A stretch of DNA of 41,447 bases from a virus, in IMG/VR virus record IMGVR_UViG_3300027976_000078, positions 1 to 41,447 of that record; one strand, written 5' to 3'. Positions 1,466-41,447 of this stretch are shown piece by piece. Within the stretch, counting starts at the first letter, position 1, and each line of letters starts with the position of its first letter. The notes beneath the pieces were generated by a model. That model saw nothing but the letters and a program-made list of their open reading frames with translations. It was not told the origin of the DNA and made no database searches. The position numbers and the translations under genes are program-made.

Positions 1466-1475
1466 AGAGTATACG
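1466..1475 (-). promoter_or_regulatory. Late promoter motif CGTATACTCT, copy A
   Basis: The minus strand reads GTTGTCGTATACTCTGAGCG. TATACT would serve as a -10-like element. The site lies directly after the capsid terminator and about 66 nt ahead of the 1400 start. The same 10-mer recurs at three other minus-strand sites. The region where a -35 box would lie is taken up by the terminator hairpin, so recognition may depend mainly on the extended -10 element. Confidence 0.6.
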
Positions 1476-1482
1476 ACAACAA

Positions 1483-1517
1483 AAAGGGCCGTAGGGGTAA
1501 AACCCGTACGGCCCTTT
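1483..1517 (-). terminator. Rho-independent terminator after the major capsid gene
   Basis: An 11-bp perfect stem (AAAGGGCCGTA / TACGGCCCTTT) has a 13-nt loop. On the minus strand the stem runs into TTTTTGTTGTCG. It lies 18 bp past the capsid stop codon and just before promoter copy A, so it would insulate capsid transcription from the tail unit. Confidence 0.8.
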
Positions 1518-1534
1518 GAAACTGTCAGACTACC

Positions 1535-2770
1535 TTACAAGCCGAGGCTGGTAACGGGGCAGGCCGAGACGCTCAACGACAAGCAACGCTTGTAGAGGAT
1601 CGGGGTGACCGCCGACGGACGCACGGGCTGATATGCCCGCGTGATCTCATACTTGTGCCAGCCGAAGTCGCCATACATGTTTTCACAGTTGTCGAGCTCG
1701 TAGTGCCATTGCAGCTCGCCCATGACCAGCTGGGGAGCGAACTTGAACGACCCTTCGCCAACGTAACGCTCAGGGACGAGACGCTTGAAGGAACCGGCTC
1801 CGATGAGGAAGCCCACCTCGAAAGCGGCCCCAACCCAAGCTGGGTTGACGCGAGCGGCGGTGCCGTTCGTGGTGGCCACTCCAACGAACGGCTCCACGAA
1901 GATCGGCTGACCGCTGATGTCCAGACCAGAGGCACGGAGAGGGCGCTGGTCGATACCGAAGCTGATGCCGCGATAATTACCAAACGTTTCCCAGCTGTAA
2001 GAGGTGAGGGCACGCTCGCCGTTCTTGAACGAGCCGGTCGTCAGAGCGATGAGAGTTTCCTTGACGCCGAGTTCCTCACGGAACGCCTCGATGATGTCCA
2101 CCGAACCGATGAACTTGTAGTGGGCACCGTTGGTGCCGTCCTCGAACATTTCGTCGAGGATGGTGTCCTTCTTGTAGCGGGCCACGGCGTGGAGCGCGTT
2201 AAAGGAGAGCTGTCCGATGTCGGCCTCGGGGAGGTTCTTGTAAGGAACGTCGATCTGAGATTCGCCACCGTTGAAGCCGCCAGAGAGGCCGTAAATGGTC
2301 GACAAACCGGCCACGTATTTGGTGCCCGAGCGGTCGTGGAGCGTCGCACGAACGTCAACGTTCATGTATTGCACCATCAGCTTCTTGAGCGAATCCTCGG
2401 CCATGCCGTAGGAGCCCTTGTAGGCCGCGAAACCGTTCTTCACGCACACCTTTGGACCGATGCCGCGCTTGGAGCCGAGCGAATAGGTGTATTCGGTCGT
2501 GGCGACGTCGTCCTGCGAGTCCACCGGTCCGCACAGCGTGGCCGTGGTGACGAAGGTAGGACGCACGAGGGAGTCGGCCGGGAGGGCCTGCTCTTGGACA
2601 ACTGAACGAACGGTGTCAGAGACACCGGAAGGGAAGACGCCTCCTTCGAGGACGTTTACCCATGGGGAATTGTAGGCCAGAGCCTTAGCAATTTGACCGA
2701 GAACGCGGTTAGTGTCCTTGGTAGCGAGTGCGCGGGCCGCGATGGGTCCGAAACAAACTGAAGTAGCCAT
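1535..2770 (-). CDS. Major capsid protein (probable)
   Basis: 411 aa. This length is usual for an HK97-fold major capsid protein, and the gene lies after portal and scaffold in the order expected for a head module. Glycine-rich beta stretches are visible (GLSTIYGLSGGFNGGESQ; NYRGISFGIDQRP), along with many aromatic residues near the C terminus. It has its own upstream promoter motif (2941-2950), a ~165-nt leader and a dedicated terminator, fitting the need for very high expression. No signature motif proves the fold. The call rests on size, position and isolation as a single strongly transcribed gene. Start ATG at 2770, preceded by AGGG. Confidence 0.8.
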   Translation of the reverse strand: MATSVCFGPIAARALATKDTNRVLGQIAKALAYNSPWVNVLEGGVFPSGVSDTVRSVVQEQALPADSLVRPTFVTTATLCGPVDSQDDVATTEYTYSLGSKRGIGPKVCVKNGFAAYKGSYGMAEDSLKKLMVQYMNVDVRATLHDRSGTKYVAGLSTIYGLSGGFNGGESQIDVPYKNLPEADIGQLSFNALHAVARYKKDTILDEMFEDGTNGAHYKFIGSVDIIEAFREELGVKETLIALTTGSFKNGERALTSYSWETFGNYRGISFGIDQRPLRASGLDISGQPIFVEPFVGVATTNGTAARVNPAWVGAAFEVGFLIGAGSFKRLVPERYVGEGSFKFAPQLVMGELQWHYELDNCENMYGDFGWHKYEITRAYQPVRPSAVTPILYKRCLSLSVSACPVTSLGL

Positions 2771-2940
2771 AATGAGAGCCCTAGAAAATTATTCTCGTCG
2801 TGCTTGGGCACGGCAACGTCGAGCGGGAAAAGGCGAGCACAGAATATGCCCGTCAACACACTTTCCTTTGCCAGACCAGCGGCTCGGACGATCGTTAGGG
2901 TCGATGGAAGCGTGAGCGGTGCAACCAATTTATGCTCGTC

Positions 2941-2950
2941 ACAGTATACG
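2941..2950 (-). promoter_or_regulatory. Late promoter motif variant CGTATACTGT, copy D, ahead of the capsid gene
   Basis: The minus strand reads GTTCGACGTATACTGTGACG, one base off the 10-mer found at four other sites. It is placed between the end of the upstream glycosyltransferase-like gene (2972) and the capsid start (2770). It predicts a leader of about 165 nt for the capsid transcript. Confidence 0.55.
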
Positions 2951-2971
2951 TCGAACGTATCTCGGCGGCAA

Positions 2972-3685
2972 CTACACTTTGCCCAACCCGTGTTTTTCCC
3001 GCACCAACCGACGTCCCGAATCGTCCTTGATCCCGTGGACGAAGGCGAGCGGTTCCCGGGGCGGGAACAATTGCTCCATTTTCACGTCCACGTGCCGATA
3101 AAAATTGGCCATCTGGGAACTCTTCCACCAGTGGGGACGAAATTTCTCGGCGAGATAAACGTCCCAGCCCATCTGCGGAGCCGAGCCTTCCAAGCCCGCC
3201 ACTTTCAGGCACAGCGTCGGGTGAAAAACGAGGTTGCCGTTGACGTGCCCGTTGATCCCCCACTCTTTTTGCCACGCGCCCATCACGAGCTTGTTTTGAG
3301 CGAGCGCTTGCTTCCATTCGGCGTCGATGAGGTCGAGCCAATCGCGCTTCAGGGGAACGATGTCGCTCTCGATGAGCCACACCGCGTCCGTTTTCCACTC
3401 ACGCTCGCGGTGTTTTTCGGCCGCCAACATCAAGATGTCACACGCAAGCCCGTTGCAGCCCGCGGGCCATCCCACTTCGCGCCGTCGACCCTTGTGGGGC
3501 TTCATCACATTAAATTTCTCGGAGACGTGGCGGACCGTCTCGGGGTCGGGCAGCTGGGCGTCGAAGCGATACGCAAAAAGAAACTGATGCCTGTCCTGCT
3601 TCTGGAGCTCCATGTCCGCGATGAGGCGCGACGTCTCCATGGCCCGATCGCGGTCGCCGTCCCAATACTGCATGCACAAAATCAT
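2972..3685 (-). CDS. Glycosyltransferase-like protein in the head module
   Basis: 237 aa from the ATG at 3685, which overlaps the previous stop as ATGA; a longer frame to 3730 has no such support. The N terminus reads MILCMQYWDGDRDRAMETSR, like GT-A enzymes that open with a strand and nucleotide-binding loop. VWLIESDIVPL (residues 102-112) has the acidic ESD position of a DxD-like metal/nucleotide-sugar site. The centre and C terminus are rich in Trp and Phe. It is coupled to the HTH-glycosyltransferase upstream, and both sit between scaffold and capsid, which suggests sugar addition to virion protein, DNA or host surface. The substrate is unknown. Confidence 0.55.
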   Translation of the reverse strand: MILCMQYWDGDRDRAMETSRLIADMELQKQDRHQFLFAYRFDAQLPDPETVRHVSEKFNVMKPHKGRRREVGWPAGCNGLACDILMLAAEKHREREWKTDAVWLIESDIVPLKRDWLDLIDAEWKQALAQNKLVMGAWQKEWGINGHVNGNLVFHPTLCLKVAGLEGSAPQMGWDVYLAEKFRPHWWKSSQMANFYRHVDVKMEQLFPPREPLAFVHGIKDDSGRRLVREKHGLGKV

Positions 3686-4737
3686 CGGGTGTTGAAGGGC
3701 CCGAAGCACGTCTGGCCGATGTGGCCACACACCACCGACAAATCAACATAAGATTGGTGTCCCGCCTGTCCTGCGCGGATGCCAAACGTCTGATCTTCGC
3801 CCTGTTGGGTGCGCGAGTTCTGGAAATCGAGGGCCTTCGTCTCTGCTAATTGAGCGTGAGTGTCGTTGAGCAGCTTCTCCACTTGAGAGAGGTCGAGCTT
3901 TCCTTCCCTCACTTGCTCATATGCCACTCGAATCGTGTCGGAGAGGTTCGCGATGCGCGTCACGGCGGCGTCGTTGGCGTTTGTGAAGTAATGCCAGCTT
4001 TCGGTGGGGTGTTGGGGGGCCAGATTGGGAAATTTTGCCCTCACGTCCAAGTACACCTGACGGTTGACGAGCAACGCACCGGTGGCCGTCCATCGAACCG
4101 CCCGAAGCTCGTCACGGGGCGCGTCGTGGGCCCGTTTGTTCTCGGCGAGTCCGTCCGGGGTGCCCATCATGGCCTCGTAATACATCGCCTTCCCGCCCGC
4201 GCTTCGCCCAAAATAGAGAGCCCCCACGAGCGATTTGTTGTGGGAGAGGAGGGAATTCAAAATGTGCTTGCCTGCGTATTTCTCGGGAAAATTGAAGCCC
4301 GTGAAGTGGTTGAACCACCCCGCGTTGCCGAAAGGGAACACCATGTCGTCGTCGGTCCAAAATGACCACTCAACGCCCGTCTCCAAAAATTGATCTGCGA
4401 GCACGTTACGGGCGTGATGAATAAAGGCGTCGTTGTGACGCATCAAGGCCCCCATCGTGCCTCGGTCGAGCAGCCCAAGGATTGAAAAGTGCGTCACGGG
4501 ATGAACGGCCTTGTAGAAAGGCTGCAAAATTACAACCTTTCGGCCCTCCCAATCGGCGGACTTGGTGGGCCCGTTCGAGGGTCGCTCGAACACCTTTTCG
4601 ATGGCCGCAATGGACGGGGTTTTTGACCCGTTGCGCCACTGCTGCACGAGGAGCTTGGACACGCCGAAGAACTCGGTGGCCGCTTGATCTCCCAGCTCGA
4701 CCACCTTCAACTTGACGACGTTCGTGAGGTAGCTCAT
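3682..4737 (-). CDS. Glycosyltransferase (GT-A type) with an N-terminal helix-turn-helix
   Basis: 351 aa from the ATG at 4737, where ATGA joins it to the scaffold stop. Residues ~14-50 look like a helix-turn-helix (LGDQAATEFFGVSKLLVQQW then PSIAAIEKVF). A GT-A domain follows: VVILQPFY, a DDD motif at 129-131 (SFWTDDDMVFP), and near the end GEDQTFGIRAGQAGHQSYVD leading to VVCGHIG. This matches the usual ED..F..R...G....D....GH ending of family 2-like transferases. Residues ~270-310 form a likely helical insert. The HTH suggests DNA contact or self-control; modification of phage DNA is possible but unproven. It is coupled to the 2972-3685 gene. Confidence 0.7.
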   Translation of the reverse strand: MSYLTNVVKLKVVELGDQAATEFFGVSKLLVQQWRNGSKTPSIAAIEKVFERPSNGPTKSADWEGRKVVILQPFYKAVHPVTHFSILGLLDRGTMGALMRHNDAFIHHARNVLADQFLETGVEWSFWTDDDMVFPFGNAGWFNHFTGFNFPEKYAGKHILNSLLSHNKSLVGALYFGRSAGGKAMYYEAMMGTPDGLAENKRAHDAPRDELRAVRWTATGALLVNRQVYLDVRAKFPNLAPQHPTESWHYFTNANDAAVTRIANLSDTIRVAYEQVREGKLDLSQVEKLLNDTHAQLAETKALDFQNSRTQQGEDQTFGIRAGQAGHQSYVDLSVVCGHIGQTCFGPFNTR

Positions 4738-6134
4738 CGGTTCTGCATCTTCTCCCACTCCGCGTCCATCGCGCTCTCGGCGTTGGTGTTGAAGATGTCC
4801 ATCTTAGGGCCCCCGTCGGAGGCGCCCTGCGCTCGGGCGGTGCGAGAGAATTTGCCCGCCTTGCGAATGTCGGCGAGCTCCTGCTCGAGGGTTTCCACTC
4901 GGGTCGTGGCTTCCTTCAGTTGCCGTTGGTAGCGGGGAGCCAAGACGCCCGTGAGGGCGAGAATGCTGCGCATACGGGAGCTGTCGTTGGAGAGAAACCC
5001 GAGCAACATGCTCTGGGATTCCCCGGCTTCCTTGTTGTGGGCTTCGAGATCGGCCCGTTCCTTCGGGGACGCCCCGTCGGGGATGTCCTGTTGGGTGAGA
5101 AACGGGAGTTGCGGGAGCAGCGGCTTCAGGGTAGAGATGGCCTCCGCAACAAATTGTTCCTTCGTTCGCTTCGGGGCGTCGGCTCGTTCGGCGTTCAGCT
5201 TTACGGCGTTCGCTTTCACCTCGGCGAGCGCGGCCTTCCGGTCCATGTCAACGTTTTCGTTGTCAGCGATGCGACCGTTCACGAGCATCTTGTCTCGAGC
5301 GGGGAGCTTGTCGGCCCACCGTGAAATTTGTTCAACTTGCTCGTCGTAGGGCAACTTTTTCACCTGCTCGATGAGCGCGTCGCGGAGACCGTTCTTTTTG
5401 AGGGCCTCGAAGATGGTGGCGTTATTGACGTCGAGTCGGGAGCTGAATTTTTGCTGGAACTCGGGGTCCTGCTCCGCGGCGTAGGTGGCCCGGAACTCGC
5501 GGAGCTGCTTGAGCTCGGCCTCCACTTCGGGGGCGACCGTTTTCTTGGACACCTCGTCGAGTTTGATCTTCAGGTGATCCGCTTCTTTGCGGGCCACTGC
5601 CGTCTCGTCTTTGGCGGTCTGCTCGCGTTCCTTGGCGAGGCGCTTCAGTTTCTCTACGGTCGTTTTCGTCTTCTCGCTGGCGTCGGAGCGCAGCTTGATG
5701 TTCTCGTACGGGTCGACGTCGTCGGCCTTTGGCGCGGGCGGGTCCTTTTTGGCGGGCGGCGTCTCGCTGCCCGACTTGAAAAGTTCGGCGAGAATGTCGT
5801 CCCCCTCTTCGGCCGCTTTGCGCGGCTCGGTGGCGACAACCTCCTTCGTCACGGCGGGCGTCAGATCGTCGACCTCGTCCACTTCAAGGGGATTCTCGTC
5901 GGGTATCTCCGAGGCGATCTCCGAATTGGGCGCGTCGGCGTCGACCTTGCGGTCTCGGTCGGGGGTGTTGTCGTCGCGGGACGGCTCTCGGCCCATCTCT
6001 TTCAGGAACATCTCGTCCATCGACGAGCCCGCGTCGGGCACATCGTCGGGGGGCATCACAATGCCGGTGCGGTTGGCAACGCCCGCCTCGGAAGTGGGGG
6101 AGCGGAAACTTTCAGGTTGTAGTGGATCGGCCAT
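4734..6134 (-). CDS. Capsid scaffold protein (probable)
   Basis: 466 aa, highly charged, with an acidic disordered N terminus and a long coiled-coil-like middle (about residues 125-220, rich in Glu/Lys/Ala heptads). A second helical part follows (~380-430) and the tail is polar. This composition, plus a place between portal and capsid genes, is typical of phage scaffold proteins, which fill the prohead and are then lost. The start ATG at 6134 lies 2 nt after the previous stop (TAA-TT-ATG). The stop overlaps the next start by ATGA. No protease domain is visible in it. Confidence 0.75.
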   Translation of the reverse strand: MADPLQPESFRSPTSEAGVANRTGIVMPPDDVPDAGSSMDEMFLKEMGREPSRDDNTPDRDRKVDADAPNSEIASEIPDENPLEVDEVDDLTPAVTKEVVATEPRKAAEEGDDILAELFKSGSETPPAKKDPPAPKADDVDPYENIKLRSDASEKTKTTVEKLKRLAKEREQTAKDETAVARKEADHLKIKLDEVSKKTVAPEVEAELKQLREFRATYAAEQDPEFQQKFSSRLDVNNATIFEALKKNGLRDALIEQVKKLPYDEQVEQISRWADKLPARDKMLVNGRIADNENVDMDRKAALAEVKANAVKLNAERADAPKRTKEQFVAEAISTLKPLLPQLPFLTQQDIPDGASPKERADLEAHNKEAGESQSMLLGFLSNDSSRMRSILALTGVLAPRYQRQLKEATTRVETLEQELADIRKAGKFSRTARAQGASDGGPKMDIFNTNAESAMDAEWEKMQNR

Positions 6135-6136
6135 AA

Positions 6137-6388: not shown

Positions 6389-6451
6389 GGTGTCTAATTA
6401 AAAAAAGGCTGGTGTGGGGCATCGGATTCCCACGGTGAGTCTGTTCATTTT

Positions 6452-8665
6452 CTAAACGGCCGGAGCCGGAGCTGGTGCTGTGGGCGGAGCCTGCTGGCCT
6501 TGTGGGGCCTCCTGCTGGCCTTGTGGGGCCTCCTGCTGGCCTTGTGGGGCCGCCTGCTGTGCCTGCTGTGCCTGCTGGCCTTGTGGGGCCGCCTGCTGTG
6601 CCTGCTGTGCCTGCTGGGCGATGATGGCCTGTAAATTGCCGAGCTCGCTGGCCGCCATCCGCAACTGGCGGAGGTCTTCTGCGAACGCGGCCTTGTCGGC
6701 ACCGGCGGCCACGGCGGCCGAGATGTGCGCCTCCCAATGGATAAGGAGCTGCTCAAAAGCCTTCATGATGCCCGGGTTTCCCTCGGAGAGTTTTTGACCG
6801 ATGTTGACGATCGGCACCTTCACGGCCTCGATGTGGAGACCGTGGTTGTCCCGCGGGGACACCTCGACGGGGTCGCCCATCGACAACAAAATGTTTTCTA
6901 AGTTCTGCTGCCGCGTCTGCTCGGCGACGACGGTGGGGTCGGGAATAGGTAGCATGACGTCTTCCGCAAATTCGGCGTTGACGCGGGCCGAGGTGGCGGC
7001 CTTTTGGAGCTTCTCTTGATCAAATAAAGGGTCCTGACGTTTCTCAGCGGCGAACAGCACGATTTGCTGTGCTTTCGCGTCCGTCCAGTCGTCAACGGTG
7101 CGCAAAGCTGGTTGATTGGCGATGAGCTCGAGCTCCTCTTCGGACATGTAGTTGAGCAGATACGCACGGGCCCCCTCGGCGTCCTCGTCGTCGGTGTCTT
7201 TGGACACGATGCGCTTCTGACAAGTGTCAACGAGCTTGCCGACCTGCATTAAAAATCGTTCGAGGATGGCGTCGCGCTTTTCCTCTTGGCGGGCCGCGAA
7301 CAGGTTCACCTCCGATGCCGTGGTGCGCTCATTCCCGAACTCCTTGGGGGTGACACCGCCCGCAATCTGGTCCATGAAGGCCACGAGCTGCTGATCGAGC
7401 TTCAGGAACGCCTCGACGTTCGGGTTGGCGTTCTTCTGTTCTGAGATTGTGTAATTGGCGGGGATGAGGACGGCCATGCCTTGGACGGCGAGCGCAAATC
7501 GGTTCAGCTGCTTGGCGTCGCCCTGAATCATGATCTTGCCGGAAAGCTGGAGACGATCGACTACCTCGTTGCGAGCGCGGTCAACGGCCCCGGCGAGTTC
7601 GTAGAGCTCGCGGCCGATGCCTTTTGAGCCCATCAACTTTCCGTTCGCCTGCTGAAACGAAAACAACGACAGGACATATTTCAACCCCTTCGCGGAGTCA
7701 AATTGGTCGAGCTTCTCGAAGAGTATTTTCTTGGCGCGGCCGTCGACAACGTAGTGCGACACTTTGCCATCATATTCGGGCACGTAGATGTGATACACCT
7801 CGATGGTTTTGGAACCCGAGAGCAACGAAAGCGACACGCTCGATTCCCGAATTGCGTCCTCGTAGACGCGGAAGTCTGTGTAGGGGGACGAATGGCCTCC
7901 GCCGGTGACGGAGCGGGGGGCAGCGGCGTTGAGAGCCCCGACCGTGTTCTCGATGTCCCAGCCCGCAGTCTCCGCGGCGTCTCGGTTCTCGATGTAGGAC
8001 GCCAACTCGTGGATCATCAGGTATTGCTTACCTACCCAAAGCTGACAACCGTTGACGTTCTGCTTGGTGCCGTCGGGAACGAAAAACTCGTCCTGTCGGA
8101 AGTGCGTTGGCCGCCACGAATACTCGTCGAGGTGCCCGACGGACGTGAACCCGAAGAGCGCGTTCTCCATCGACACCTCGTTCAGAAAATCCACCCACCC
8201 GTCCCAACCTCGGATCACTTCCGTAACCTTTCGGCGAAACATTTCGCTCTTCTCTTTACCGCCCGGGTGATTCTCGGGGAGCGAGGAGCTTGTCAAATAC
8301 CGGGCCGTCTGAACGGCCTTCGTCAGCCTCGGCGACACCTTGTCGATGGCCGTGGAGAGGGGCTTCGTTGAGAAATTGGAACGCCAATCTTGACCCTCCT
8401 CCTTCAGCTCGGCCTGCTCATACGGCCGCTCGGCGTTATATTTCGCCATGATCCGACCGTTCTTCTCGTTCTGGTCCCGTCGAGCCTCCTCGAGGGTCGA
8501 AATAATCTGAAAAATGTGCTCTACGTTCGAGATGGCACGACGCTTCGGCCTCAACGTTTTAACGTTAAGCTCTGGCGCGTTGATGGTGCCCCCCGCAACG
8601 CCATCCGAGGCTGGCGGAATCAGTGCGTTGCTGGAGGAGACGTCTGGGTATGCTTGGTCAGCCAT
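6452..8665 (-). CDS. Portal protein (head-tail connector)
   Basis: 737 aa, in the size range of large podovirus-type portals. The N-terminal region (DWRSNFSTKPLSTAIDKV, residues ~75-95) and the central part match phage portal style. The long helical region includes AGAVDRARNEVVDRLQL and EFGNERTTASEVNLFAARQE, like the portal stem and crown helices. The C terminus is an unusual Gln/Ala/Pro/Gly-rich tail made by tandem DNA repeats. The gene heads the capsid block and has promoter motif copy B 19-28 bp upstream of its ATG. Its leader is short and AT-rich (CTCTATAAATA-ATG), with no Shine-Dalgarno. Confidence 0.85.
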   Translation of the reverse strand: MADQAYPDVSSSNALIPPASDGVAGGTINAPELNVKTLRPKRRAISNVEHIFQIISTLEEARRDQNEKNGRIMAKYNAERPYEQAELKEEGQDWRSNFSTKPLSTAIDKVSPRLTKAVQTARYLTSSSLPENHPGGKEKSEMFRRKVTEVIRGWDGWVDFLNEVSMENALFGFTSVGHLDEYSWRPTHFRQDEFFVPDGTKQNVNGCQLWVGKQYLMIHELASYIENRDAAETAGWDIENTVGALNAAAPRSVTGGGHSSPYTDFRVYEDAIRESSVSLSLLSGSKTIEVYHIYVPEYDGKVSHYVVDGRAKKILFEKLDQFDSAKGLKYVLSLFSFQQANGKLMGSKGIGRELYELAGAVDRARNEVVDRLQLSGKIMIQGDAKQLNRFALAVQGMAVLIPANYTISEQKNANPNVEAFLKLDQQLVAFMDQIAGGVTPKEFGNERTTASEVNLFAARQEEKRDAILERFLMQVGKLVDTCQKRIVSKDTDDEDAEGARAYLLNYMSEEELELIANQPALRTVDDWTDAKAQQIVLFAAEKRQDPLFDQEKLQKAATSARVNAEFAEDVMLPIPDPTVVAEQTRQQNLENILLSMGDPVEVSPRDNHGLHIEAVKVPIVNIGQKLSEGNPGIMKAFEQLLIHWEAHISAAVAAGADKAAFAEDLRQLRMAASELGNLQAIIAQQAQQAQQAAPQGQQAQQAQQAAPQGQQEAPQGQQEAPQGQQAPPTAPAPAPAV
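6491..6620 (-). repeat. Tandem repeats coding the portal's Q/A/P/G-rich tail
   Basis: The 19-mer CTGCTGGCCTTGTGGGGCC (plus strand) occurs at 6491, 6512, 6533 and 6572, the first three at exact 21-bp spacing. 9-bp units (TGTGCCTGC type) fill the gaps. Read on the minus strand they code repeats of EAPQGQQ and QAQ. Such repeats vary in number by slippage. Confidence 0.9.
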
Positions 8666-8683
8666 TATTTATAGAGGGCGAGG

Positions 8684-8693
8684 AGAGTATACG
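8684..8693 (-). promoter_or_regulatory. Late promoter motif CGTATACTCT, copy B, ahead of portal
   Basis: The minus strand reads GAGTGACGTATACTCTCCTC. It directly abuts the kinase stop codon (8694-8696) and lies just before the portal start at 8665. A transcript starting a few bases past TATACT would carry a leader of only ~15 nt. Confidence 0.65.
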
Positions 8694-10346: not shown

Positions 10347-10347
10347 G

Positions 10348-10710: not shown

Positions 10711-10714
10711 GGGG

Positions 10715-17402: not shown

Positions 17403-17478
17403 TGGGGGCAGGTGCTGGAGTCGAACCAGCTATCTCCGGCGTATGAAGCCGACGTGCAATCCGATGCACCGACCTGCA
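17403..17478 (-). tRNA. tRNA with CAT anticodon (Met or Ile2)
   Basis: All arms fold. The acceptor is TGCAGGT/ACCTGCC with pairs 2-7 intact and 1-72 mismatched (T-C). The D-stem is GTGC/GCAC and the anticodon stem TCGGC/GCCGG with loop TTCATAC. The T-stem is GCTGG/CCAGC around TTCGACT. The discriminator is C and CCA is encoded. The 1-72 mismatch recalls initiator tRNA, but the three G-C pairs usual in the initiator anticodon stem are missing, so elongator Met or lysidine-modified Ile is more likely. Confidence 0.85.
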
Positions 17479-20176: not shown

Positions 20177-20882
20177 CGTCGGAGGGGGGTTTAATCGTGA
20201 GCTCCTCGGGCACGCGCACCCGGGGGATTTCGGGTCGGCCGCGCTGCATGGTCGCCAGCGTAGCCAGCACGTCGCGCACCGTGGCAATATGTTCGTCCCC
20301 GCCCCGGATGGTTTTGTGCGCGTCGATGTTGGTGGGGATTTTATCCCCGAGAGCGCGGTAGCAGCAATTGTGGATCGACTCGAGGGCTTTACAAAGATCG
20401 AGCACGGCTTTCGGGTTTTGGGTGATCTCGGCGATCTCTCCCTCTTTGATGTAGCGAAATTTGACCAGCGCCGAGATGAGTTTGTCCTCGCTCGTGTAGA
20501 GCTCGATGGCCGTGGTGACGATGTCGCGGAGCTTTTGGGCCTGCAAATAATTGACGACGCGGTTGGCCACCTTTTCGGCCTCGGCCTCCCCTGCCCCTGT
20601 TTTCAGACGTTTGAGTTTGGTCGGCCAGTTGAAATCGTGTTCCAGCGCACGCACCATCGGCGCGGGCACCTTGGCGGAGATGGCCGTCTTTTCGATGTCC
20701 CCCGAGAATGCAGCATAGCACATCCACGTCCGCGCCTGATCTATCGTCAGTGGGTCATAGTTGCCGAGGTGAGGCGGGGGCGGACCGTCCGTGGGGTCCT
20801 CGATGTATTCGATGAGCGGGTTCAGGCCAGAGTATACGACAGTTGTCGGATTAACGGGACGGTGTCGACAAAAATCGTTCAC
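20163..20882 (-). CDS. Possible terminase small subunit
   Basis: About 239 aa from a GTG at 20882; the start is uncertain (TTG at 20975 or an unseen start nearer 20820 are alternatives). The domain begins near YDPLTIDQARTWMCYAAFSG. It contains a helix-turn-helix-like part, DIEKTAISAKVPAPMVRALE, then long helices (AEAEKVANRVVNYLQAQKLR) and a Pro/Asp-rich end. An N-terminal HTH followed by an oligomerising helical core and a position ahead of terL are usual for TerS. The 115-aa gene between them weakens the case. A late-promoter motif lies inside its N-terminal codons. Confidence 0.45.
   Translation of the reverse strand: MNDFCRHRPVNPTTVVYSGLNPLIEYIEDPTDGPPPPHLGNYDPLTIDQARTWMCYAAFSGDIEKTAISAKVPAPMVRALEHDFNWPTKLKRLKTGAGEAEAEKVANRVVNYLQAQKLRDIVTTAIELYTSEDKLISALVKFRYIKEGEIAEITQNPKAVLDLCKALESIHNCCYRALGDKIPTNIDAHKTIRGGDEHIATVRDVLATLATMQRGRPEIPRVRVPEELTIKPPSDDGLA
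20829..20838 (-). promoter_or_regulatory. Late promoter motif CGTATACTCT, copy C, at the head of the late block
   Basis: The minus strand reads AACTGTCGTATACTCTGGCC. It is the most upstream copy of the motif and would drive the whole terminase-to-kinase block. It overlaps the apparent 5' coding part of the putative TerS, so that gene's start or this site's activity needs testing. Confidence 0.5.
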
Positions 20883-30953: not shown

Positions 30954-30967
30954 AACCAAAAAAAATT

Positions 30968-31771: not shown

Positions 31772-31792
31772 GCGTTACGCCAAACAAAATTC

Positions 31793-31821: not shown

Positions 31822-31837
31822 GTGTTAGCGTGGCGGG

Positions 31838-33868
31838 ATGCGCACCATCTGCTTAGACACCGAGTCGTATTATGACAACGACGTGTCGTTGAATCCGTTG
31901 GGCGGCTGGGGCTACGCCCACCACCCCAAGTGCGACGTCTACATGATGTCAGTGTTCGATGGGGTCAACGCGTGGGCCGGACACCCCAAGGATTTCAATT
32001 TCGCGTCGCTCGACGGGGCCCGCCTGCTGAGTCACAACAAGGCCCACGACGAGAACATTGCGATCGGTCAATTCGACCGTGGGCTGTGGCCAAAACTCAA
32101 ATACGCGGAATGGCATTGCACCTCGAACCTGTCGGCCTACCTCTGCAACCGCCGTTCGTTGGATCAGGCCACGGAGTTTCTTTTGGGGGTGGCGGTGTCG
32201 AAGGCGATGCGTAACTACGCCAAGGGAAAAAGCTGGGCCGACATTCAAGCCGACGGAAGGGCCGATGAGATGCTCTCGTATGCTCGAGACGACGCCGTTT
32301 ACCCGTGGCGCATCTGGGAAAAGTATTCTGATCAATGGCCCGAGTGGGAGCGGCGGCTTTCGGAGCTCACCATCCAACAGGGCCACCGCGGGGTGCGTAT
32401 CCATCAGGAGCGGCTCCGGGCAGGCATCGTGCTGCTCCAGCGGGTCATCCTGAGGGCCACCGACGCTCTGCCGTGGGTGACGGCGGGCATGAAGCCCAGT
32501 TCGCCCCGTGGCGTGGCACAGGCGTGCCGCGACGCTGGCATCCCCGCCCGCCCCGTGAAGGCTAATTTTGAGGAGGCAGCGGAGGAGTGGGAGGACAAAT
32601 ATGCGGCCGCCCAACCGTGGGTGAAGGCGCTCAAGGACCTCCGCCGCTCCAAGCGGATGCTGGCCACGCTCCAGACGATGCAGCTGCGTTTACGCCCCGA
32701 CGGCACGTTGCCATTTAGTCTCAAGTATTTTGGGGCCCACACCGGCCGCTGGGCCGGGGACGCGGGGATCAATTTTCAGAATTTCAATCGGGAGCCGCTC
32801 TTCGTCACCGAGAGCCTCGACATCGTCGACGACCTCGCCCAGATAAACGCGCTGCTCGGGCAGTTCGAGCTCGCCCCCGACGACATGTCGATGGACCTCG
32901 TCGACGTCCGAGGGATGGTGCTCCCCCCAGAGGGCATGCAGCTCGGGTCCGTCGATCTGTCGCAAATCGAGCCACGGGTGCTCAACAAGCTCGCCGGGAA
33001 CGAGTCGTTGCTCCAGAAAATCCGAGACGGCTTCCCGATTTATGAGGCCCACGCTCGCGAAACCAAGGGCTGGGTTGGAGGCAATTTGAAGAAGGAGAAC
33101 AAGAAGATGTATTCCGCGTCAAAAGCAGAAGTCCTTGGCCTTGGCTATGGCTGCGCATGGGAAAAGTTTATCACCGTGGCCAAGACGATGGCCCAACTAG
33201 ACATCACCGAGGACGACGAATTGGAGGCCCTGAAAGCGTCCTGCGACGGGGAAATACACCTCGACGAGAAGGGGGCCGCTTACGTCAACGTCCGCCACAC
33301 GATCGTCAACGCCGTGGGCCACGAGGAGCTCGTCACACGGGCGACACCCGTTCATGGACTTGTCTCGAAGGGCATCGTCAAAGATTTCCGAGACAAAAAC
33401 CCGCTCATCACGGGGCTCTGGGACACGATGCACACCGCCCTCGAGGCCGCCTCCCGCGATCCGAAAAAGAAGAACGACCTCGTCATTGACCTGCCCTCGG
33501 GGCGCCAATTAAAATACCGCGACGTCCGGGCCGAGTGGCGGACGAAGGTCGACAAGGAAACGGGGAAGACGTATCGCCGCATCGCCTACACCGCCGAGGC
33601 CGACGGACGGCGGAAGGTGTATTACGGGGGCCTCATCGTCGAGAATATCACTCAAGCCGTCGCCCGTGACATTTTCGCCGTCAACATGCTAAAAATATAT
33701 GACGCGGGCATCTGGCCGATGTGGTCCATCCACGACGAGGCCGTCAACGCCGTCCACGACGCCGAGGAGGGCGAACGGGCCCGTTCGCTGATGGCCTCAC
33801 AAGTGAGCTGGGCCCACACCCTCCCCATCGACGCGGAACTGGTATTATCAGATCGTTTCAAAAAGTAG
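31838..33868 (+). CDS. Family A DNA polymerase with 3'-5' exonuclease
   Basis: 676 aa. Exo I CLDTES (D7, E9), Exo II SHNKAHDENI (~65-74) and Exo III SYARDDAVYPW (~147-157) are present, so proofreading should work. The polymerase part has FGAHTGRWAGDAGINFQNF, motif A SVDLSQIEPR (D373), motif B with K429 and GYG near 437, and motif C SIHDEA (H632-D633-E634). It is the replicative enzyme with the primase-helicase just downstream. The start at 31838 lies just past a terminator hairpin, without a clear Shine-Dalgarno. Confidence 0.93.
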   Translation: MRTICLDTESYYDNDVSLNPLGGWGYAHHPKCDVYMMSVFDGVNAWAGHPKDFNFASLDGARLLSHNKAHDENIAIGQFDRGLWPKLKYAEWHCTSNLSAYLCNRRSLDQATEFLLGVAVSKAMRNYAKGKSWADIQADGRADEMLSYARDDAVYPWRIWEKYSDQWPEWERRLSELTIQQGHRGVRIHQERLRAGIVLLQRVILRATDALPWVTAGMKPSSPRGVAQACRDAGIPARPVKANFEEAAEEWEDKYAAAQPWVKALKDLRRSKRMLATLQTMQLRLRPDGTLPFSLKYFGAHTGRWAGDAGINFQNFNREPLFVTESLDIVDDLAQINALLGQFELAPDDMSMDLVDVRGMVLPPEGMQLGSVDLSQIEPRVLNKLAGNESLLQKIRDGFPIYEAHARETKGWVGGNLKKENKKMYSASKAEVLGLGYGCAWEKFITVAKTMAQLDITEDDELEALKASCDGEIHLDEKGAAYVNVRHTIVNAVGHEELVTRATPVHGLVSKGIVKDFRDKNPLITGLWDTMHTALEAASRDPKKKNDLVIDLPSGRQLKYRDVRAEWRTKVDKETGKTYRRIAYTAEADGRRKVYYGGLIVENITQAVARDIFAVNMLKIYDAGIWPMWSIHDEAVNAVHDAEEGERARSLMASQVSWAHTLPIDAELVLSDRFKK

Positions 33869-33891
33869 TTTCGTTTTCCGTAACTTGTTGT

Positions 33892-36090
33892 ATGTTGCCC
33901 ATCTTGCTGCCCTTCATCGCTAACTTAGTTTCCACGGACGTCGAGCTCGGATGCCCGTGGACGTTCCAAGGCTCCGTGCCGGACGGGGTGCGCGGCAAAA
34001 AGAACAAAGCGGCCCGCTCCGAGTGGATCGAAAGCCCCGCGACGGAGCACATGTGCTATTCAGGATGGGAGGGCATCGCCGACAACGCCCGCATATCGAA
34101 GGGCGGGGAGGACGGCAATCCGCCCTACCGATTGATGGCCATCGTGGCCGACTACGACGCCGCGCACACCGAACACGAGCTCGAGCTGGGCTGCAAGCGG
34201 GTCGGGGAATATCTGCCCGCCTATTACGAAAAGACGCTGTCCGGGTATTCGCGTTTCGTTTGGACGTTGGAAGAGCCCGTCACCGTCCCGTCCCGCGATT
34301 TTGCGGTGGCACTTCTGAAGCACCTCAAGCGGAGGCTCGCCGTGGACAGCTTGGCGGTGGGGCTCGACGAGCCCGCATGGCTGGCCCCCGAACGATATTA
34401 CACAAATTCCGGCGATTGGTCCAAAGTGTCAGACTACAAGATACCGAAGGCCCTGATGGCCGGGTGGGTGTTCGAGGTGGCCGAGAGGTTTTCGTTCCGG
34501 TCGGTGTCGTCGATCAAAATCCCGATGGAAATTGTGTGGCCGGAGCTGCAAAAGAAATTCCCGTCCGCGACGTGGCCCTCCGATTTTGAGGCGGGGTCAC
34601 AGGGTCCTTCCTTTTGGATTGAGGGCTCCCAATCCCCCAAATCGGCGCTCCTCAAAGACGAGGGGCTGTTCACGTTCGCGGCCCACGCCACCAAACCATT
34701 TTGGAGCTGGCGCGACTTGCTTGGCACCCAATTTGTAGAGGGCTACGAAACGAAAAGCCTCGGCGAGGCCGTCGATGGAATTTATTTTGACGGAAAAGGG
34801 TATTGGAGGAAAGACGGACCGGGCAAGTGGCGGCCGTTCTCGAAAGAGGACACGGTGATTCACTTGAAGGTGACCCGCGGGCTTTCCGACGCGGCCCCGA
34901 AGGGTGCGTCCTCGGACACCGAGCGGGCCCTCGAACACGTCCGCCAGTGGGCGGGCATCGTCGGCGCAGCGCCGTTCGTATTTCGCCCCACGGGCCTGAC
35001 GAAGGTGATGGGCAACGTGTCCGTGCTGAACACGTTCACGCGCACCACCATTCGACCCGCCGAGGCACCAGTGATTTGGGGGCCGACGGGACCGATGCCG
35101 TTTTTATCGGACTACATCGGCACGCTCTTCGATCCACACGAGCAGCTCGACTTTTTTCTCAGTTGGACGAAACGATTTTACGAGACGGCCTACGAGCTGA
35201 AACTCCAGAGCGGACAAAATCTGTTTATCATCGGCTCCACCGGTGTCGGCAAGACGCTCCTCTCGACGCAGGTGCTCGCGAAGCTCGTCGGCGGGAACGC
35301 CACCGCCGAAAACTATCTGCTCGGCAAAACTGATTTCAATTCGCAGCTGTTTGAGTCGGCCCTTTGGACCGTTGACGACACCTCGTCGTCAAACGACGTC
35401 GCCTCCCACCGTCGTTTCAGCACCATCATTAAGCGTATGGCCGCTAACACTACGTTCGAGTTCCACGCGAAATTTCAAGTGCCGTGTCAAGTGCGGTGGC
35501 AGGGGCGGGTAGTTGTCACCGCGAACGCCGACGAAGAGTCGATCCGCGTCATCCCCGATCTCGACATTTCAATTCTCGATAAGATCATCATATTGAAGAC
35601 CACCGACGCATGTCGCGCCTTCCCCCCGCAAGCCCAGCTGGAGGCGACGATTGACTCAGAGCTCCCACATTTTGCCCGCTACCTGTTAGACTACGTGGTC
35701 CCAGCTCAATGCGGTGGCGACTCCCGATACGGCATCCGAAGCTACCACGAGAAGTCACTCGTCGCGGTGGCCAAGCACGCCTCCACCTCAAATAATTTCA
35801 CGGAAATTCTGGAGGACTGGCGGAACGACTATTTCGCGGAGCACTCCGACGATTGGGTCGGCACTTCACATCAATTTTTTGTTGAGCTTCACCGCGACAT
35901 GGCACGGGCCGCGGCCCTCCGTGGGCTCACCGGCAACATCGTCAACCGCCAGCTTTCGGCCCTCAAAAACAAGGGCCACATCGTCCAATGTCGGGAAAAC
36001 GGGTCCCACCGCGAGTGGATAATTCCGCCGCCCCTCAAGGCCCCGCCTAAGTCGGTGCCGCAATCTCAAACCTCGAATTTTCAGAAATGA
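33892..36090 (+). CDS. Primase-helicase with an SF3/AAA+ ATPase domain
   Basis: 732 aa from the ATG at 33892; the open frame upstream lies antiphase in polA. The N-terminal third has RLMAIVADYDAAHTEHELEL and YSRFVWTLEEPV, a DxD-type primase-polymerase-like site. NLFIIGSTGVGKTLLSTQVL (~444-463) is Walker A, and FESALWTVDDTSSSNDVA the Walker B/acidic strand; RWQGRVVVTANADEESIRVI fits the SF3 sensor region. The C-terminal end looks like a winged helix (LTGNIVNRQLSALKNKGHIV). One protein would prime and unwind for the polymerase. Confidence 0.8.
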   Translation: MLPILLPFIANLVSTDVELGCPWTFQGSVPDGVRGKKNKAARSEWIESPATEHMCYSGWEGIADNARISKGGEDGNPPYRLMAIVADYDAAHTEHELELGCKRVGEYLPAYYEKTLSGYSRFVWTLEEPVTVPSRDFAVALLKHLKRRLAVDSLAVGLDEPAWLAPERYYTNSGDWSKVSDYKIPKALMAGWVFEVAERFSFRSVSSIKIPMEIVWPELQKKFPSATWPSDFEAGSQGPSFWIEGSQSPKSALLKDEGLFTFAAHATKPFWSWRDLLGTQFVEGYETKSLGEAVDGIYFDGKGYWRKDGPGKWRPFSKEDTVIHLKVTRGLSDAAPKGASSDTERALEHVRQWAGIVGAAPFVFRPTGLTKVMGNVSVLNTFTRTTIRPAEAPVIWGPTGPMPFLSDYIGTLFDPHEQLDFFLSWTKRFYETAYELKLQSGQNLFIIGSTGVGKTLLSTQVLAKLVGGNATAENYLLGKTDFNSQLFESALWTVDDTSSSNDVASHRRFSTIIKRMAANTTFEFHAKFQVPCQVRWQGRVVVTANADEESIRVIPDLDISILDKIIILKTTDACRAFPPQAQLEATIDSELPHFARYLLDYVVPAQCGGDSRYGIRSYHEKSLVAVAKHASTSNNFTEILEDWRNDYFAEHSDDWVGTSHQFFVELHRDMARAAALRGLTGNIVNRQLSALKNKGHIVQCRENGSHREWIIPPPLKAPPKSVPQSQTSNFQK

Positions 36091-37796: not shown

Positions 37797-39034
37797 CCCT
37801 AGACCCAATGCGGATCGAAACTGTCCGCCAATACTTGTCTCTCCATCCAGAGCATGGGTGTCGCCGGGTGGCCCACGCAACGGGGCTTCCCGCCACTTCG
37901 ACCGCGGACATCGTTCGGCGACTGAAAGCGGGGGAGCTCGGCCCGCTCGGGGGAAGCCCCACGAGGACCGTCGAGAACGTGCCCAGCCGAACAATTAGGA
38001 CGCTGCCCGACATGTTGATGGAGTGCAAGGTCGACACGAAAGTCTGGGAGGTGACCAACCACATCGTCAACAAGCACGACATGTGCTACAAAGACAAAAA
38101 TGGCGACGGGCAGACGGTCCAACTCTTTCAAGTGAAGGCGTGGCTCCGACGCAGACCGGGCCCCACCGACGGTGAGGCCATCGCGACCGCGCTCGCCGCC
38201 TTCCGGACCAAGGGTCGGAAGGTGCAGAAACTAAAGCCGATCAATAAAACCGGAAACCTTCTCGAGATTTCCATCCCCGATCTCCACTACGGAGCTCTTT
38301 CGTGGTCACCAGAAACGGGCGAGGATTACAACAGTGAGGCGGCCGAGCTCCGCTTCATGCTCGCCATCTCCGACCTCCTCGCGAAGGGGAAGGTGTTCGG
38401 GTTCGATAAGGTGTTGTTTCCCGTCGGAAGCGATTTTTTCCATGTCGACAACTCCGCCAACTCCACCACCGCGGGCACGCCGCTCGACGTGGACACGCGC
38501 TGGCAACGGAGCTTCGTCCATGGGTGCCAACTGATTCGGAGGGCCATCGACATGATCCGAAAGCACGCGCCCGTTGAGATCGTGGTCATCTCCGGCAACC
38601 ACGACGAGGCCCGGGCGTTTTATATGGGCGAGGTGCTGTCGGCGGCGTATGCGTCGGCCGCAGACGTTGCCGTGAACAACGGCCCTAAACCCCGCAAATA
38701 CTTTCGTTGGGGCACCGTTCTGCTGGGGCTCACGCACGGGCACAAAGTGAAAGTGGCCGCCTTACCTAATATCATGGCCGGGGAGGCGGCCCAAGATTGG
38801 GCAAAAACAACGCACCGCGAGTGGCACATCGGTCATCTTCACCATGCGCGGGAAGATCGCTTCCACGCGGGCATGGAACAGAACGCCACCCGCATCCGCG
38901 TGTTGCCGTCCCTAGCGGGCACTGACGCTTGGCACTCCAAGAACGGATTTGTGGGAGCAAAGAAAGCCGCCGAGGCGTATCTGTGGAACCTCGTCGACGG
39001 ATATGTTGGCCACTTCAGCTTTTCGCCAAAATGA
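37793..39034 (+). CDS. Metallophosphoesterase with an N-terminal HTH-like part
   Basis: 413 aa from the ATG at 37793 (ATGA). The calcineurin-like core has ISIPDLHYG (D-x-H), PVGSDFFHVDN, VVISGNHDEA (GNHD), LTHGH and IGHLHHA, the full metal-binding set. The first ~60 residues (IETVRQYLSLHPEHGCRRVA, HATGLPATSTADIVRRL) look like a helix-turn-helix, which suggests action on nucleic acid. It could be a nuclease of SbcD type or a phosphatase that heals RNA ends for the ligase. The stop codon lies in a hairpin ending the operon. Confidence 0.8.
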   Translation: MTLDPMRIETVRQYLSLHPEHGCRRVAHATGLPATSTADIVRRLKAGELGPLGGSPTRTVENVPSRTIRTLPDMLMECKVDTKVWEVTNHIVNKHDMCYKDKNGDGQTVQLFQVKAWLRRRPGPTDGEAIATALAAFRTKGRKVQKLKPINKTGNLLEISIPDLHYGALSWSPETGEDYNSEAAELRFMLAISDLLAKGKVFGFDKVLFPVGSDFFHVDNSANSTTAGTPLDVDTRWQRSFVHGCQLIRRAIDMIRKHAPVEIVVISGNHDEARAFYMGEVLSAAYASAADVAVNNGPKPRKYFRWGTVLLGLTHGHKVKVAALPNIMAGEAAQDWAKTTHREWHIGHLHHAREDRFHAGMEQNATRIRVLPSLAGTDAWHSKNGFVGAKKAAEAYLWNLVDGYVGHFSFSPK

Positions 39035-39060
39035 GCTGATTAGCGTTCGTAATCAGCTCA
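39032..39060. terminator. Hairpin between the converging early and late units
   Basis: 11-bp perfect stem TGAGCTGATTA-N7-TAATCAGCTCA. The first TGA is the stop codon of the phosphoesterase. There is no T-run on either side, so it may work with Rho or protect mRNA 3' ends for both directions. Confidence 0.6.
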
Positions 39061-39068
39061 GGCGAGAG

Positions 39069-39143
39069 TGGAGCCCTCGGCCGGAATCGAACCAGCAACC
39101 GCTTGTTTACAAAACAAAGGCTCTGCCGTTGAGCTACGAGGGC
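39069..39143 (-). tRNA. tRNA-Thr (TGT anticodon)
   Basis: Complete cloverleaf. Acceptor GCCCTCG/CGAGGGC is perfect, D-stem GCTC/GAGC, anticodon stem TTTGT/ACAAG with loop TTTGTAA, and T-stem GCTGG/CCGGC around TTCGATT. The discriminator is T and CCA is encoded. Its 5' end abuts the stop codon of the 39144-39665 gene, so it must be cut out of that mRNA by RNase P. Confidence 0.95.
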
Positions 39144-39665
39144 TTAAATTGGACGACCGCCCAGCTGGTTAATCACCGGATCGGGCTGAACGGGGCTCAC
39201 CTGAGTGGGCGCGAGCTGCCGGAGTCGGGCCGTGTTGAGTTGGTCGTTGGGTGGAGGGGCCCCCACGGCCCGTTCTGAGGCCAAGGGGCCCTGCGTTTGG
39301 GTTGGTTGGTCAGATGACCCACCCGAGCCCAAAGGCACCGCAATTTGGGCCAAGGTTCCGTTCTCGTCGGCATCCTTCAGCTCGGCCTCGGTGATAAAGT
39401 CGGAGTTGTAGAGCACCGTCGAGGCGTCTGACGCCTCATAATGGTCAATTCCCAGCTCGGGCAGCTGTCCAAAATTCTGGAGTATCTGCTCAATCATCGG
39501 GTCGGCCAGCATCTCTTGCGTGATCGCCGGAATCAACACCGCGGGTATCGACCCGTCGACCAACCCCGGAAGGGGGGGCGGGAGCGTGGCCGCCTCGGGC
39601 TTGTTGGGCTCCGCGGAGAGAGGGGCGTCGGTGGGGGAGAGGGTGGCGTTGTCGAGGGCGGGCAT
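39144..39665 (-). CDS. Pro/Ala-rich late protein, 173 aa
   Basis: Low-complexity ends (PDNATLSP..PLPGLVDG; ..QVSPVQPDPVINQLGGRPI) flank a folded-looking middle, LIPAITQEMLADPMIEQILQ then YNSDFITEAELKDADENG. It follows the lysozyme gene at the end of the virion block, so it may be a virion or lysis accessory. No family recognised. Confidence 0.6.
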   Translation of the reverse strand: MPALDNATLSPTDAPLSAEPNKPEAATLPPPLPGLVDGSIPAVLIPAITQEMLADPMIEQILQNFGQLPELGIDHYEASDASTVLYNSDFITEAELKDADENGTLAQIAVPLGSGGSSDQPTQTQGPLASERAVGAPPPNDQLNTARLRQLAPTQVSPVQPDPVINQLGGRPI

Positions 39666-39666
39666 G

Positions 39667-40185
39667 TTAGAAAGAGGCCAAGGGGCCCGTGAGTTTCAGG
39701 GGGGATTCTGTGGAGAGTTTACGCACCGAAGCTTCCCGCATCCGTGCGGCGTTAGCTGACATCCTCGGAGCGACGCCCGTGCCGTCCTTCAGCGAGTTTT
39801 TATATTCGGCGTTGTCGAGATACTCGTCGGCGGCCTCAGAGAATTTTTTCTCTTTCAGGAGCTTCAAGGTTTTCGGGCTCCCGGACAGGTCGCCTCGGAA
39901 GAATCCATCGACCACGGCCACTTGAAGACTCTCGGGAAACGAGTCGAAGACGTCCCCGAGCTTTCGTTTCGCGGACGCCACCTTGTCATCTAAATCAGAA
40001 TCAAAGAGCCCCTGCACCTCGTCGGCGGTGAGCTTCTTGCCCTTGTATTTCTGATGCTCGGAGGGCTTCACGAGGTGCCCGATGCCGATCGTATAATTGC
40101 CCTTGTGGTCCTTGTAGATTTCGTTGCGGGAGCCCTCGTGCTGGGCGATGTATGCCGCGGCCGCCTTCTGGAGAGAGCTACTCAT
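39667..40185 (-). CDS. T4-type lysozyme (GH24 muramidase)
   Basis: 172 aa. HEGSRNEIYKDHKGNYTIGI gives E17, D26 and T32, the same E-8x-D-5x-T spacing as the catalytic triad of T4 lysozyme. GIGHLV follows as usual. The enzyme cuts the NAM-NAG bond in peptidoglycan. No signal peptide or membrane anchor is seen. It overlaps the polyprotein stop by 8 nt (ATGAGTAG), so it may be a virion-borne enzyme that helps entry rather than, or as well as, the lysis endolysin. Confidence 0.85.
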   Translation of the reverse strand: MSSSLQKAAAAYIAQHEGSRNEIYKDHKGNYTIGIGHLVKPSEHQKYKGKKLTADEVQGLFDSDLDDKVASAKRKLGDVFDSFPESLQVAVVDGFFRGDLSGSPKTLKLLKEKKFSEAADEYLDNAEYKNSLKDGTGVAPRMSANAARMREASVRKLSTESPLKLTGPLASF

Positions 40186-41447
40186 CGGAGAGGGCTAGGG
40201 CCCCGGCACGTCGAGCGACCCGGTCAAGAACTCGCGTATCGCGACTTTCTTCGCCGAAGAGGGGGAGCGACGAGGCGTTGGCGCGTCGAGTCTCGAACTC
40301 CGGATCGACGAGAGCATCGAAATCAGTGAATCCGAAGTCTTCGAGGAGTCCACGGATGACGGGATCGCGGGTGAGGTTTTCATAAAATTCTGGGGTGGCC
40401 ACTAAATCTCTGTCCGAGAGTATACGAAGCGTCTCCTGTGTCGTCCGCCCGTCGACGGACAGTTCGGTGAGCGTTTTGAAGAACGACCACACCGTCTCCT
40501 GAACCTCGGCCGGTGTCAATCCCGATTTTTTGGCCGCGGCACGCACCCGCGACGCGTAGGCGATGTAGCGAGCTTTGCTCCCGTGCATCTTCCCCGCGTC
40601 GAGTCCCGCGAATTGGGCCATCCACGTGTCGAGCGTCACCGCCATCTCGTCGCCGATCAGGTTTCGGAAGAAGCTTTCCACCTTGAATCCGGAGAGCTTC
40701 GCGTTCGAGTCGAGGGACGTCCGGGGCGGGTTCAAAAAACCTTGGAGCGCGGACACGGTGTTATTGGTGCGGGCGTCTAAATCGACGAGCGGGGCGACGA
40801 GCTTCTTCAACACGTCGGTGCCGGTGGGGCGGCCCGCTTTTTGCCAAGCGTCCCAAACGTGCAGCGACATCTCCAGATTTTTAATCACCATCTGTTGGGG
40901 CGACGTGGCCGCGAGCACGGCCGCAAATTGCTCCGTGTCGGGTCCGAAAATCTTCCGCAACGCCACCGCGGCCCGCGCATACCACCCGCGCTTGATCAGT
41001 CCCGCCTTCGCGGCCACGACGAGTTCGGTCTCGCTGGGCAGCTCGTCAAACACGGCCACCATGCCCGACGCGAGGCTGCGATTTTCAGCTCCCTTTTCGG
41101 AGGGCGTCATGTTCTTCCACAACTTTTTGTATTTCGGATCGGCCAGAACGTCCGTGGCGCTCGGCATGAACAGCGGCTGACCCGCGGCCACGCTCTCGCG
41201 CATCGCTTCCGTGATTGCTACCTTGTGGAACGGCGTGGTGTCACCAGCGCGATGGAGTTCTTGGAGAAGCTCCCCGTCGTTGAGTGTGTCGGTCCGTTTC
41301 TTCGTGGCCGGAGTGGACAACTCCCCGTCCTCCACCTTCGCGCCCCACTGCTTTACGTATTTACCGACCATGCTAGGGAGCATCACGTCGTAGAAGCCCT
41401 TCATGCCCTCCCCGCCCAATTTCAGATTAACACCAGAGAATGTTCCT
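40178..41447 (-). CDS. C-terminal part of a large virion polyprotein; N terminus cut by the window edge
   Basis: Open on the minus strand to the window edge (423 codons including the stop). The first visible residues are GTFSGVNLKLGGEGMKGFYD. The LK-GGEGMKGFYD block marks giant multi-domain phage virion proteins (polyvalent, DarB-like) that are injected with the DNA. FAAVLAATSPQQMVIKNLEM and WMAQFAGLDAGKMHGSKARY follow, also typical of these. Any apparent start inside the window is not real. The role could be ejected virion protein or anti-defence; the enzymatic domains would be upstream. Confidence 0.75.
   Translation of the reverse strand, partial: GTFSGVNLKLGGEGMKGFYDVMLPSMVGKYVKQWGAKVEDGELSTPATKKRTDTLNDGELLQELHRAGDTTPFHKVAITEAMRESVAAGQPLFMPSATDVLADPKYKKLWKNMTPSEKGAENRSLASGMVAVFDELPSETELVVAAKAGLIKRGWYARAAVALRKIFGPDTEQFAAVLAATSPQQMVIKNLEMSLHVWDAWQKAGRPTGTDVLKKLVAPLVDLDARTNNTVSALQGFLNPPRTSLDSNAKLSGFKVESFFRNLIGDEMAVTLDTWMAQFAGLDAGKMHGSKARYIAYASRVRAAAKKSGLTPAEVQETVWSFFKTLTELSVDGRTTQETLRILSDRDLVATPEFYENLTRDPVIRGLLEDFGFTDFDALVDPEFETRRANASSLPLFGEESRDTRVLDRVARRAGALALSDE
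40417..40426 (-). promoter_or_regulatory. Late promoter motif CGTATACTCT, copy E, inside the polyprotein gene
   Basis: The minus strand reads CGCTTCGTATACTCTCGGAC, 232 bp upstream of the lysozyme start. It could give extra lysozyme and tRNA-Thr mRNA late. As it lies inside a gene it may also be coding chance, though it shares all 10 bases. Confidence 0.45.

Follow-up and report, generated by a model that had tools for sequence, protein, structure and literature searches.

The question raised by this locus is what purpose is served by a short word that recurs on a single strand of a viral genome. The window, which is the whole stretch of DNA analysed, comprises 41,447 nucleotides of the IMG/VR virus record IMGVR_UViG_3300027976_000078. 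An earlier note, made from the sequence alone, had proposed the word CGTATACTCT as a candidate phage late promoter. The present analysis indicates that CGTATACT very probably acts as the switch that turns on the late (virion) genes, with a phage-encoded sigma factor as its reader.

The repeated word and its positions in the window

The viral record is incomplete: both ends of the window cut through genes, and the longer relatives reach 57-70 kb. The minus strand encodes the small (TerS) and large (TerL) terminase, the portal, a probable scaffold, the coat and a lysozyme. The plus strand encodes a helicase, an exonuclease, DNA polymerase A, a DUF5906 primase, a sigma factor and a second exonuclease. 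The minus strand had been taken as the late strand in the earlier note, and the virion genes are indeed located there. The coat, portal, scaffold and TerS proteins have no PHROG or Pfam match; their names are probable assignments that rest on the order and size of the genes and on their resemblance to P22-type gene sets. Genes were called with a simple codon-usage script. Start codons in the window mostly lack a Shine-Dalgarno sequence, and several leaders are A/T rich; the scarcity of Shine-Dalgarno sequences hints at a host which makes no strong use of them. Two tRNA genes are present on the late strand: tRNA-Met(cat) at 17403-17478 and tRNA-Thr(tgt) at 39069-39143, the latter at the convergent end of both gene blocks.

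The word CGTATACTCT occurs exactly four times in the window, and one-mismatch forms are found twice, as CGTATACTGT and CGTAAACTCT; all six copies are on the minus strand (Table 1). The positions in the earlier note are correct, and the copy at 39714 is an addition to them. The copies were also said to exceed chance, and this is borne out: shuffled versions of the window contain a mean of 0.57 one-mismatch matches, and none of 100 shuffles reaches six. A second-order Markov model predicts 0.009 copies of CGTATACTCT (four seen), which makes it the top-ranked 10-mer in the window; the 10-mers ranked below it come from a tandem repeat within the portal gene. CGTATACT is found five times on the minus strand and TATACT six times, and neither is found on the plus strand. 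A de novo motif search confined to the window did not recover the motif, as few sites lie within 70 nt of called starts. A second word, AATTATTT, occurs six times (at 1411, 6296, 13379, 20545, 28675 and 35790; 0.24 expected). These copies are also all on the minus strand, and are found in and outside genes and on both gene blocks.

Table 1. Coordinates of the candidate sites and associated features in the window
Feature	Position	Strand	Remarks
Site A, CGTATACTCT	1466..1475	-	67 nt upstream of a 135-aa gene (993-1400) that directly follows coat
Terminator-like hairpin, AGGGCCGTA...TACGGCCCT + T run	1480..1515	-	Read by eye; end of coat unit
Coat mRNA leader	2771..2937	-	Would start about 6 nt after the 2941 site; pseudoknot-like RNA
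Candidate coat promoter, CGTATACTGT	2941..2950	-	172 nt upstream of coat start (coat 1535-2770)
Candidate portal promoter, CGTATACTCT	8684..8693	-	20 nt upstream of start, in 28-base gap; portal 6452-8665
Candidate TerS promoter, CGTATACTCT	20829..20838	-	At start of small-terminase gene
DUF5906 primase/helicase-like gene	33721..36090	+	Directly before sigma gene
Sigma70-family factor, 255 aa	36087..36854	+	Region 2 and region 4; PHROG 351, E 1.9e-24; Pfam
Variant site, CGTAAACTCT	39714..39723	-	50 nt ahead of gene 39144-39665
Site E, CGTATACTCT	40417..40426	-	Within gene 40178-41446; lysozyme gene 233 nt downstream

The earlier note had placed copies in short gaps ahead of late genes. This stands for the copy ahead of the portal gene but not for site E, which is inside a coding sequence; site E has no counterpart seen in the relatives and could be a chance copy. 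The assignment of genes to sites also needs correction, as site A precedes the gene after coat and the copy belonging to coat itself is the 2941 variant. The hairpin at the end of the coat unit is directly upstream of site A, within about 10 nt. It is not among the matches listed by a terminator scan; in the relative G022, an inverted repeat, GC-rich and with a T run, likewise precedes the site. At TerS, no ATG, GTG or TTG is present at the start that is conserved in relatives; a CTG is found there, 5 nt after the site (20805-20840, minus strand).

Relatives and the form of the element

The phage collection contains no DNA-level match to the first 25 kb of the window, and tblastn against it gave no coat or portal match. 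Single-protein scans with the sigma factor or TerL found no relatives. Relatives were found by alignments of DNA polymerase, primase, coat and TerL in profile scans of IMG/VR, which revealed a clade with the same gene order as the window; its contigs are metagenomic fragments. Seven contigs (G020-G025 and G028) are close relatives: their coat is 87-90% identical, or their TerL about 77%. The group consists of uncultivated tailed phages, and no close cultured relative was found; a literature search with the terms tried found no paper on it. A host scan of genome contigs produced one coat relative, in a Candidatus Peribacteraceae MAG, which is too little to name a host.

In the seven close relatives there are 22 copies of CGTATACT on the late strand and none on the other strand, and a reversed control word has no match in these contigs. 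Together with the window this gives 27 late and 0 early copies over eight contigs; these are not all independent, since G022, G023 and G025 are in part near copies of each other. Most copies are located in short gaps ahead of late genes. The earlier note had raised the possibility of a motif that occurs just as often on the early strand and within genes; the relatives do not show this pattern. Its restriction to the late strand, ahead of the same late genes in different relatives, supports the late-promoter reading. Each of five contigs has more copies than a third-order Markov model predicts.

The same genes are involved throughout. TerS is preceded by CGTATACT in G020, G021, G022 and G028, by CGTACACT in G024 and by CCGATACT in G030. 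Coat is preceded by CGTATACT in G021-G024 and by CGTACACT in G020, while the portal gene is preceded by CGTAAACT in G020 and by CGTAAGCT in G021, G022 and G024. CGTATACT also stands ahead of the gene that follows coat and of several further late genes. The distance from the last T of the motif to the start codon is 6-12 nt at many sites and 20-24 nt at portal. In G024, five of the seven CGTA[TAC]ACT sites are 7-11 nt before a late start codon; for comparison, 1.8% of positions lie 5-30 nt before one. A de novo search of late upstream regions recovered the motif or a sister form of it from G012, G023, G024, G027 and G030. G011, which is close in its replication genes, is a fragment without most late genes and has no CGTATACT. 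Two other words were considered and rejected. GGTAGCTTGT in G011 is a tandem repeat in a protein gene, and GTGGTATCTT in G001 was discarded as a late motif: its five sites are ahead of early genes, on the early strand, most with a TTGCA box upstream, as in a host-like early promoter.

When near-identical surroundings are removed, 24 CGTA[TAC]ACT sites remain, two of which (G021 3459 and 6601) are probably chance copies. The consensus is GT-CGTA(T>A>C)ACT, or in full GT-CGTA[T>A>C]ACTnW. GT is favoured at the two positions immediately upstream, and A/T at the second position past the motif. The fixed positions carry 1.6-2.2 bits in sites which were gathered with one variable base only (T, A or C at -10), against a mean of 0.03 bits per upstream position. 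Information content over the 24 sites gives no -35 signal at fixed spacing, and a free-spacing search for a six-base upstream element scored 16.7, within the range of shuffles (14.7 +/- 1.75). With neither upstream information nor a free-spacing hexamer, the one-element promoter suggested in the earlier note still holds. One conserved element that precedes late genes and keeps to the late strand, with no -35 box, is the arrangement known for late promoters read by phage sigma factors.

The coat gene would differ from the others in the length of its leader. Coat mRNAs of the group would have leaders of 100-190 nt, and the portal leader in the window would be about 13 nt. Coat leaders in the window and its relatives contain a conserved H-type pseudoknot-like RNA, often in tandem, with the order stem 1, (C)UAA, loop, stem 1', stem 2'. 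A grammar search gives a score of at least 11 for 86% of 49 non-redundant leaders and for 17% of shuffles, and the stems show many compensating changes. Rfam has no match for this RNA, and the plain folding energy of the leaders is not unusual. In the window and in the GATACT relatives described below, its start would coincide with the 5' end of the transcript or fall close to it.

The sigma factor and its variation with the motif

The protein proposed to read the motif is encoded in the replication block, on the strand opposite to the late genes. It matches Pfam Sigma70_r2 (38.9 bits) and Sigma70_r4 (25.9 bits), both above the cut-off, as well as sigma chains in the PDB. Homology in both region 2 and region 4 places it in the sigma70 family. 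In an AlphaFold model, two parts are predicted with confidence and the linker between them with low confidence. Foldseek matches the model to sigma32/sigmaS; whole-chain TM-scores are low (about 0.37) because the arrangement of the domains is not fixed. As the region 4 match is kept, the protein may still be capable of -35 readout on domain grounds. The primase-sigma order is kept in relatives where both genes are found. In 15 contigs the sigma gene is found at the primase or adjacent to it, and the block order in these, as far as the fragments reach, is exonuclease, 30776-type gene, polymerase, primase, sigma. No sigma match is present in the fragments of G022, G023 and G025, which contain the motif; this is probably due to truncation.

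Across region 2.3-2.4, the sigma factors of G020, G021 and G024 share 50-61% identity with that of the window; identity is about 24% over the linker and 12-18% over region 4. The region that reads the -10 element is held and the region that reads the -35 element drifts, as expected for the reader of a one-element promoter. Contigs carrying both CGTATACT and a sigma gene have WW at the positions of W433/W434. In sigma70, region 2.4 reads base -12, and residue 437 affects its recognition (PMC2613000); the W dyad buttresses T-12 (PMC4593229). From these features we infer that the sigma factor reads CGTATACT.

A sister group has a different form of the motif ahead of the same genes (portal, coat, TerS and the homologue of gene 39144-39665). 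G012 contains eight copies of CGGATACT, all on the late strand and most 6-8 nt before a start codon, and GATACTT/CGATACT forms are found in G026, G027 and G030. GATACT forms are present ahead of coat and portal in G012, G026 and G027, and 6-8 nt ahead of the 39144-39665 homologue in G012, G027 and G030. Base -12 is T in the CGTATACT group and G in the sister group. The sister sigma factors (G012, G027 and G030; none was found in the G026 fragment) have RE, WP or FV in place of WW, and are 19-22% identical to the window protein in region 2.3-2.4. Residue 437 corresponds to K in the window group and to R in the sister group. It is suggested by this comparison that region 2.3-2.4 and the motif change together between groups, in a correlation that stems from about one switch, as it involves two clades.

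More distant relatives may use a bipartite promoter, TTGAC...ACT. TTGAC is found by eye about 35 nt ahead of the leader RNA in 18 of the 33 listed coat leaders, and ACT follows about 19 nt later in most of these; G017 has three further TTGAC...ACT sites in late-strand gaps. Whole-genome counts are small, so that a bipartite ancestral form should be regarded as a lead only. GAGACT was tried as a late core for G014-G017 and failed the strand test. These contigs also contain other repeated words: the palindrome GTTTAAAC is found in both G016 and G017, with 14 copies in each (0.7-1.1 expected), and GTTTACAC occurs in G014 nine times on the plus strand and five times on the minus strand. Either word is possibly an operator.

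A tentative scheme, to which we give slightly less than an even chance, connects these groups. Within one syntenic lineage of sigma factors, the late promoter would have changed from the bipartite TTGAC...ACT to the single GATACTT or CGTATACT; -35 readout would have been lost with region 4 kept, and the G/T switch at -12 would go with whether the W dyad is lost or kept. If this is true, promoter specificity can be traced residue by residue in nature.

Competing readings and known systems

The reading that we hold with high confidence is that CGTATACT is a one-element late promoter, which the phage sigma factor and the host core polymerase read as a -10 element without a -35 element. Early and replication genes would be transcribed rightward, and the gene directly after the primase would supply the sigma70-family factor, which would join the host core RNA polymerase and place it on CGTATACT. 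As a -10 element the motif would read T-12 A-11 N A C T-7, with C-14 G-13 in place of the usual TG extension, and transcription would start about 6-7 nt downstream of it. Messengers with the motif 6-12 nt before the start codon would then be leaderless or nearly so; several late mRNAs of the group would have 5' ends that coincide with the start codon or lie a few bases away, and the coat mRNA would open with its structured leader. The distance of 6-12 nt is consistent with the starts 6-9 nt past TATACT that the earlier note had anticipated. The start points, the late timing and the use of the host core polymerase are all predictions from the sequence.

The sites might instead be promoters for the host housekeeping sigma factor, of the extended or leaderless -10 type, with the phage sigma serving elsewhere. 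TATACT matches TATAAT at five of six positions, and -10-only promoters that give leaderless mRNA have been described in Deinococcus-Thermus (PMC12340547). However, the motif is strictly conserved and limited to the late strand, and its C-14 G-13 extension is not TGn. The G at -12 in the sister group, ahead of the same genes, breaks the canonical hexamer, and the phage sigma varies with the motif in its region 2.3-2.4. In addition, the early genes of G001 use a different, host-like promoter, TTGCA...TGGTATCTT. Host recognition is therefore considered unlikely.

It is very improbable that the motif is a DNA site for some other protein (an operator, or a packaging or replication signal). Its GTATAC core is palindromic, as is often the case in operators, but the flanks are asymmetric and all copies are oriented in the same way as the genes; the distances to start codons cluster at 6-12 nt, and the weak position of the motif fits a -10 element. 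Least probable of all is a role in RNA, as a signal for translation initiation or processing: the motif is often 6-12 nt before a start codon in a window mostly without Shine-Dalgarno sequences, but the coat copies are separated from their gene by 106-189 nt that include a conserved leader, site A is at 67 nt, and both the -10 likeness and the co-variation with sigma would be left unexplained.

The proposed one-element late promoter, with its probable reader, would be the late transcription switch of an uncultivated tailed-phage group, obtained from sequence alone. As sigma factor and promoter are both found at the same places in many relatives, the group offers a natural series for the change in -10/-35 readout. 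It also supplies short sigma/promoter pairs for in vitro use.

Among known systems, phiEco32 is similar in that a phage-encoded sigma factor (here the proposed reader) is combined with a single element without -35, copies of which precede late genes, and in that early genes run opposite to late genes. Its phi32_gp36 reads tAATGTAtA, with starts 6-8 bp downstream (PMC8948821). The authors explain the missing -35 element by the missing region 4, whereas the window sigma keeps a diverged region 4 match. The phage groups are unrelated, and with the consensus CGTATACT and a region 4 match the window does not belong to the phiEco32 gp36 promoter family proper. Phage 7-11 is also a podovirus with a late sigma factor, SaPh711_gp47, which reads GTAAtg-16-aCTA late promoters (PMC8948821). 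The ACT-type downstream element resembles the ...ACT core here, but the promoter is bipartite, with an upstream element, and is nearer to the TTGAC...ACT of the distant relatives than to CGTATACT.

The leaderless TANNNT promoters of Deinococcus-Thermus likewise have a -10 element that precedes the ORF by a few bases, with little or no 5' leader (PMC12340547); they are cellular and have a loose consensus, whereas here seven of eight bases are nearly fixed and copies are limited to the late strand.

T4 late promoters, which are read by gp55, also consist of one -10-type element without a -35 element (PMC2988020). gp55 works with gp33 and the sliding clamp (gp45), and T4 late transcripts have either polarity, while here the copies are on one strand only. 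In its mode of action the CGTATACT system would resemble the late promoters of phiEco32 (gp36) and T4 (gp55), but it forms a lineage of its own. The late element of T4 is TATAAATA, from which the element of the window group differs.
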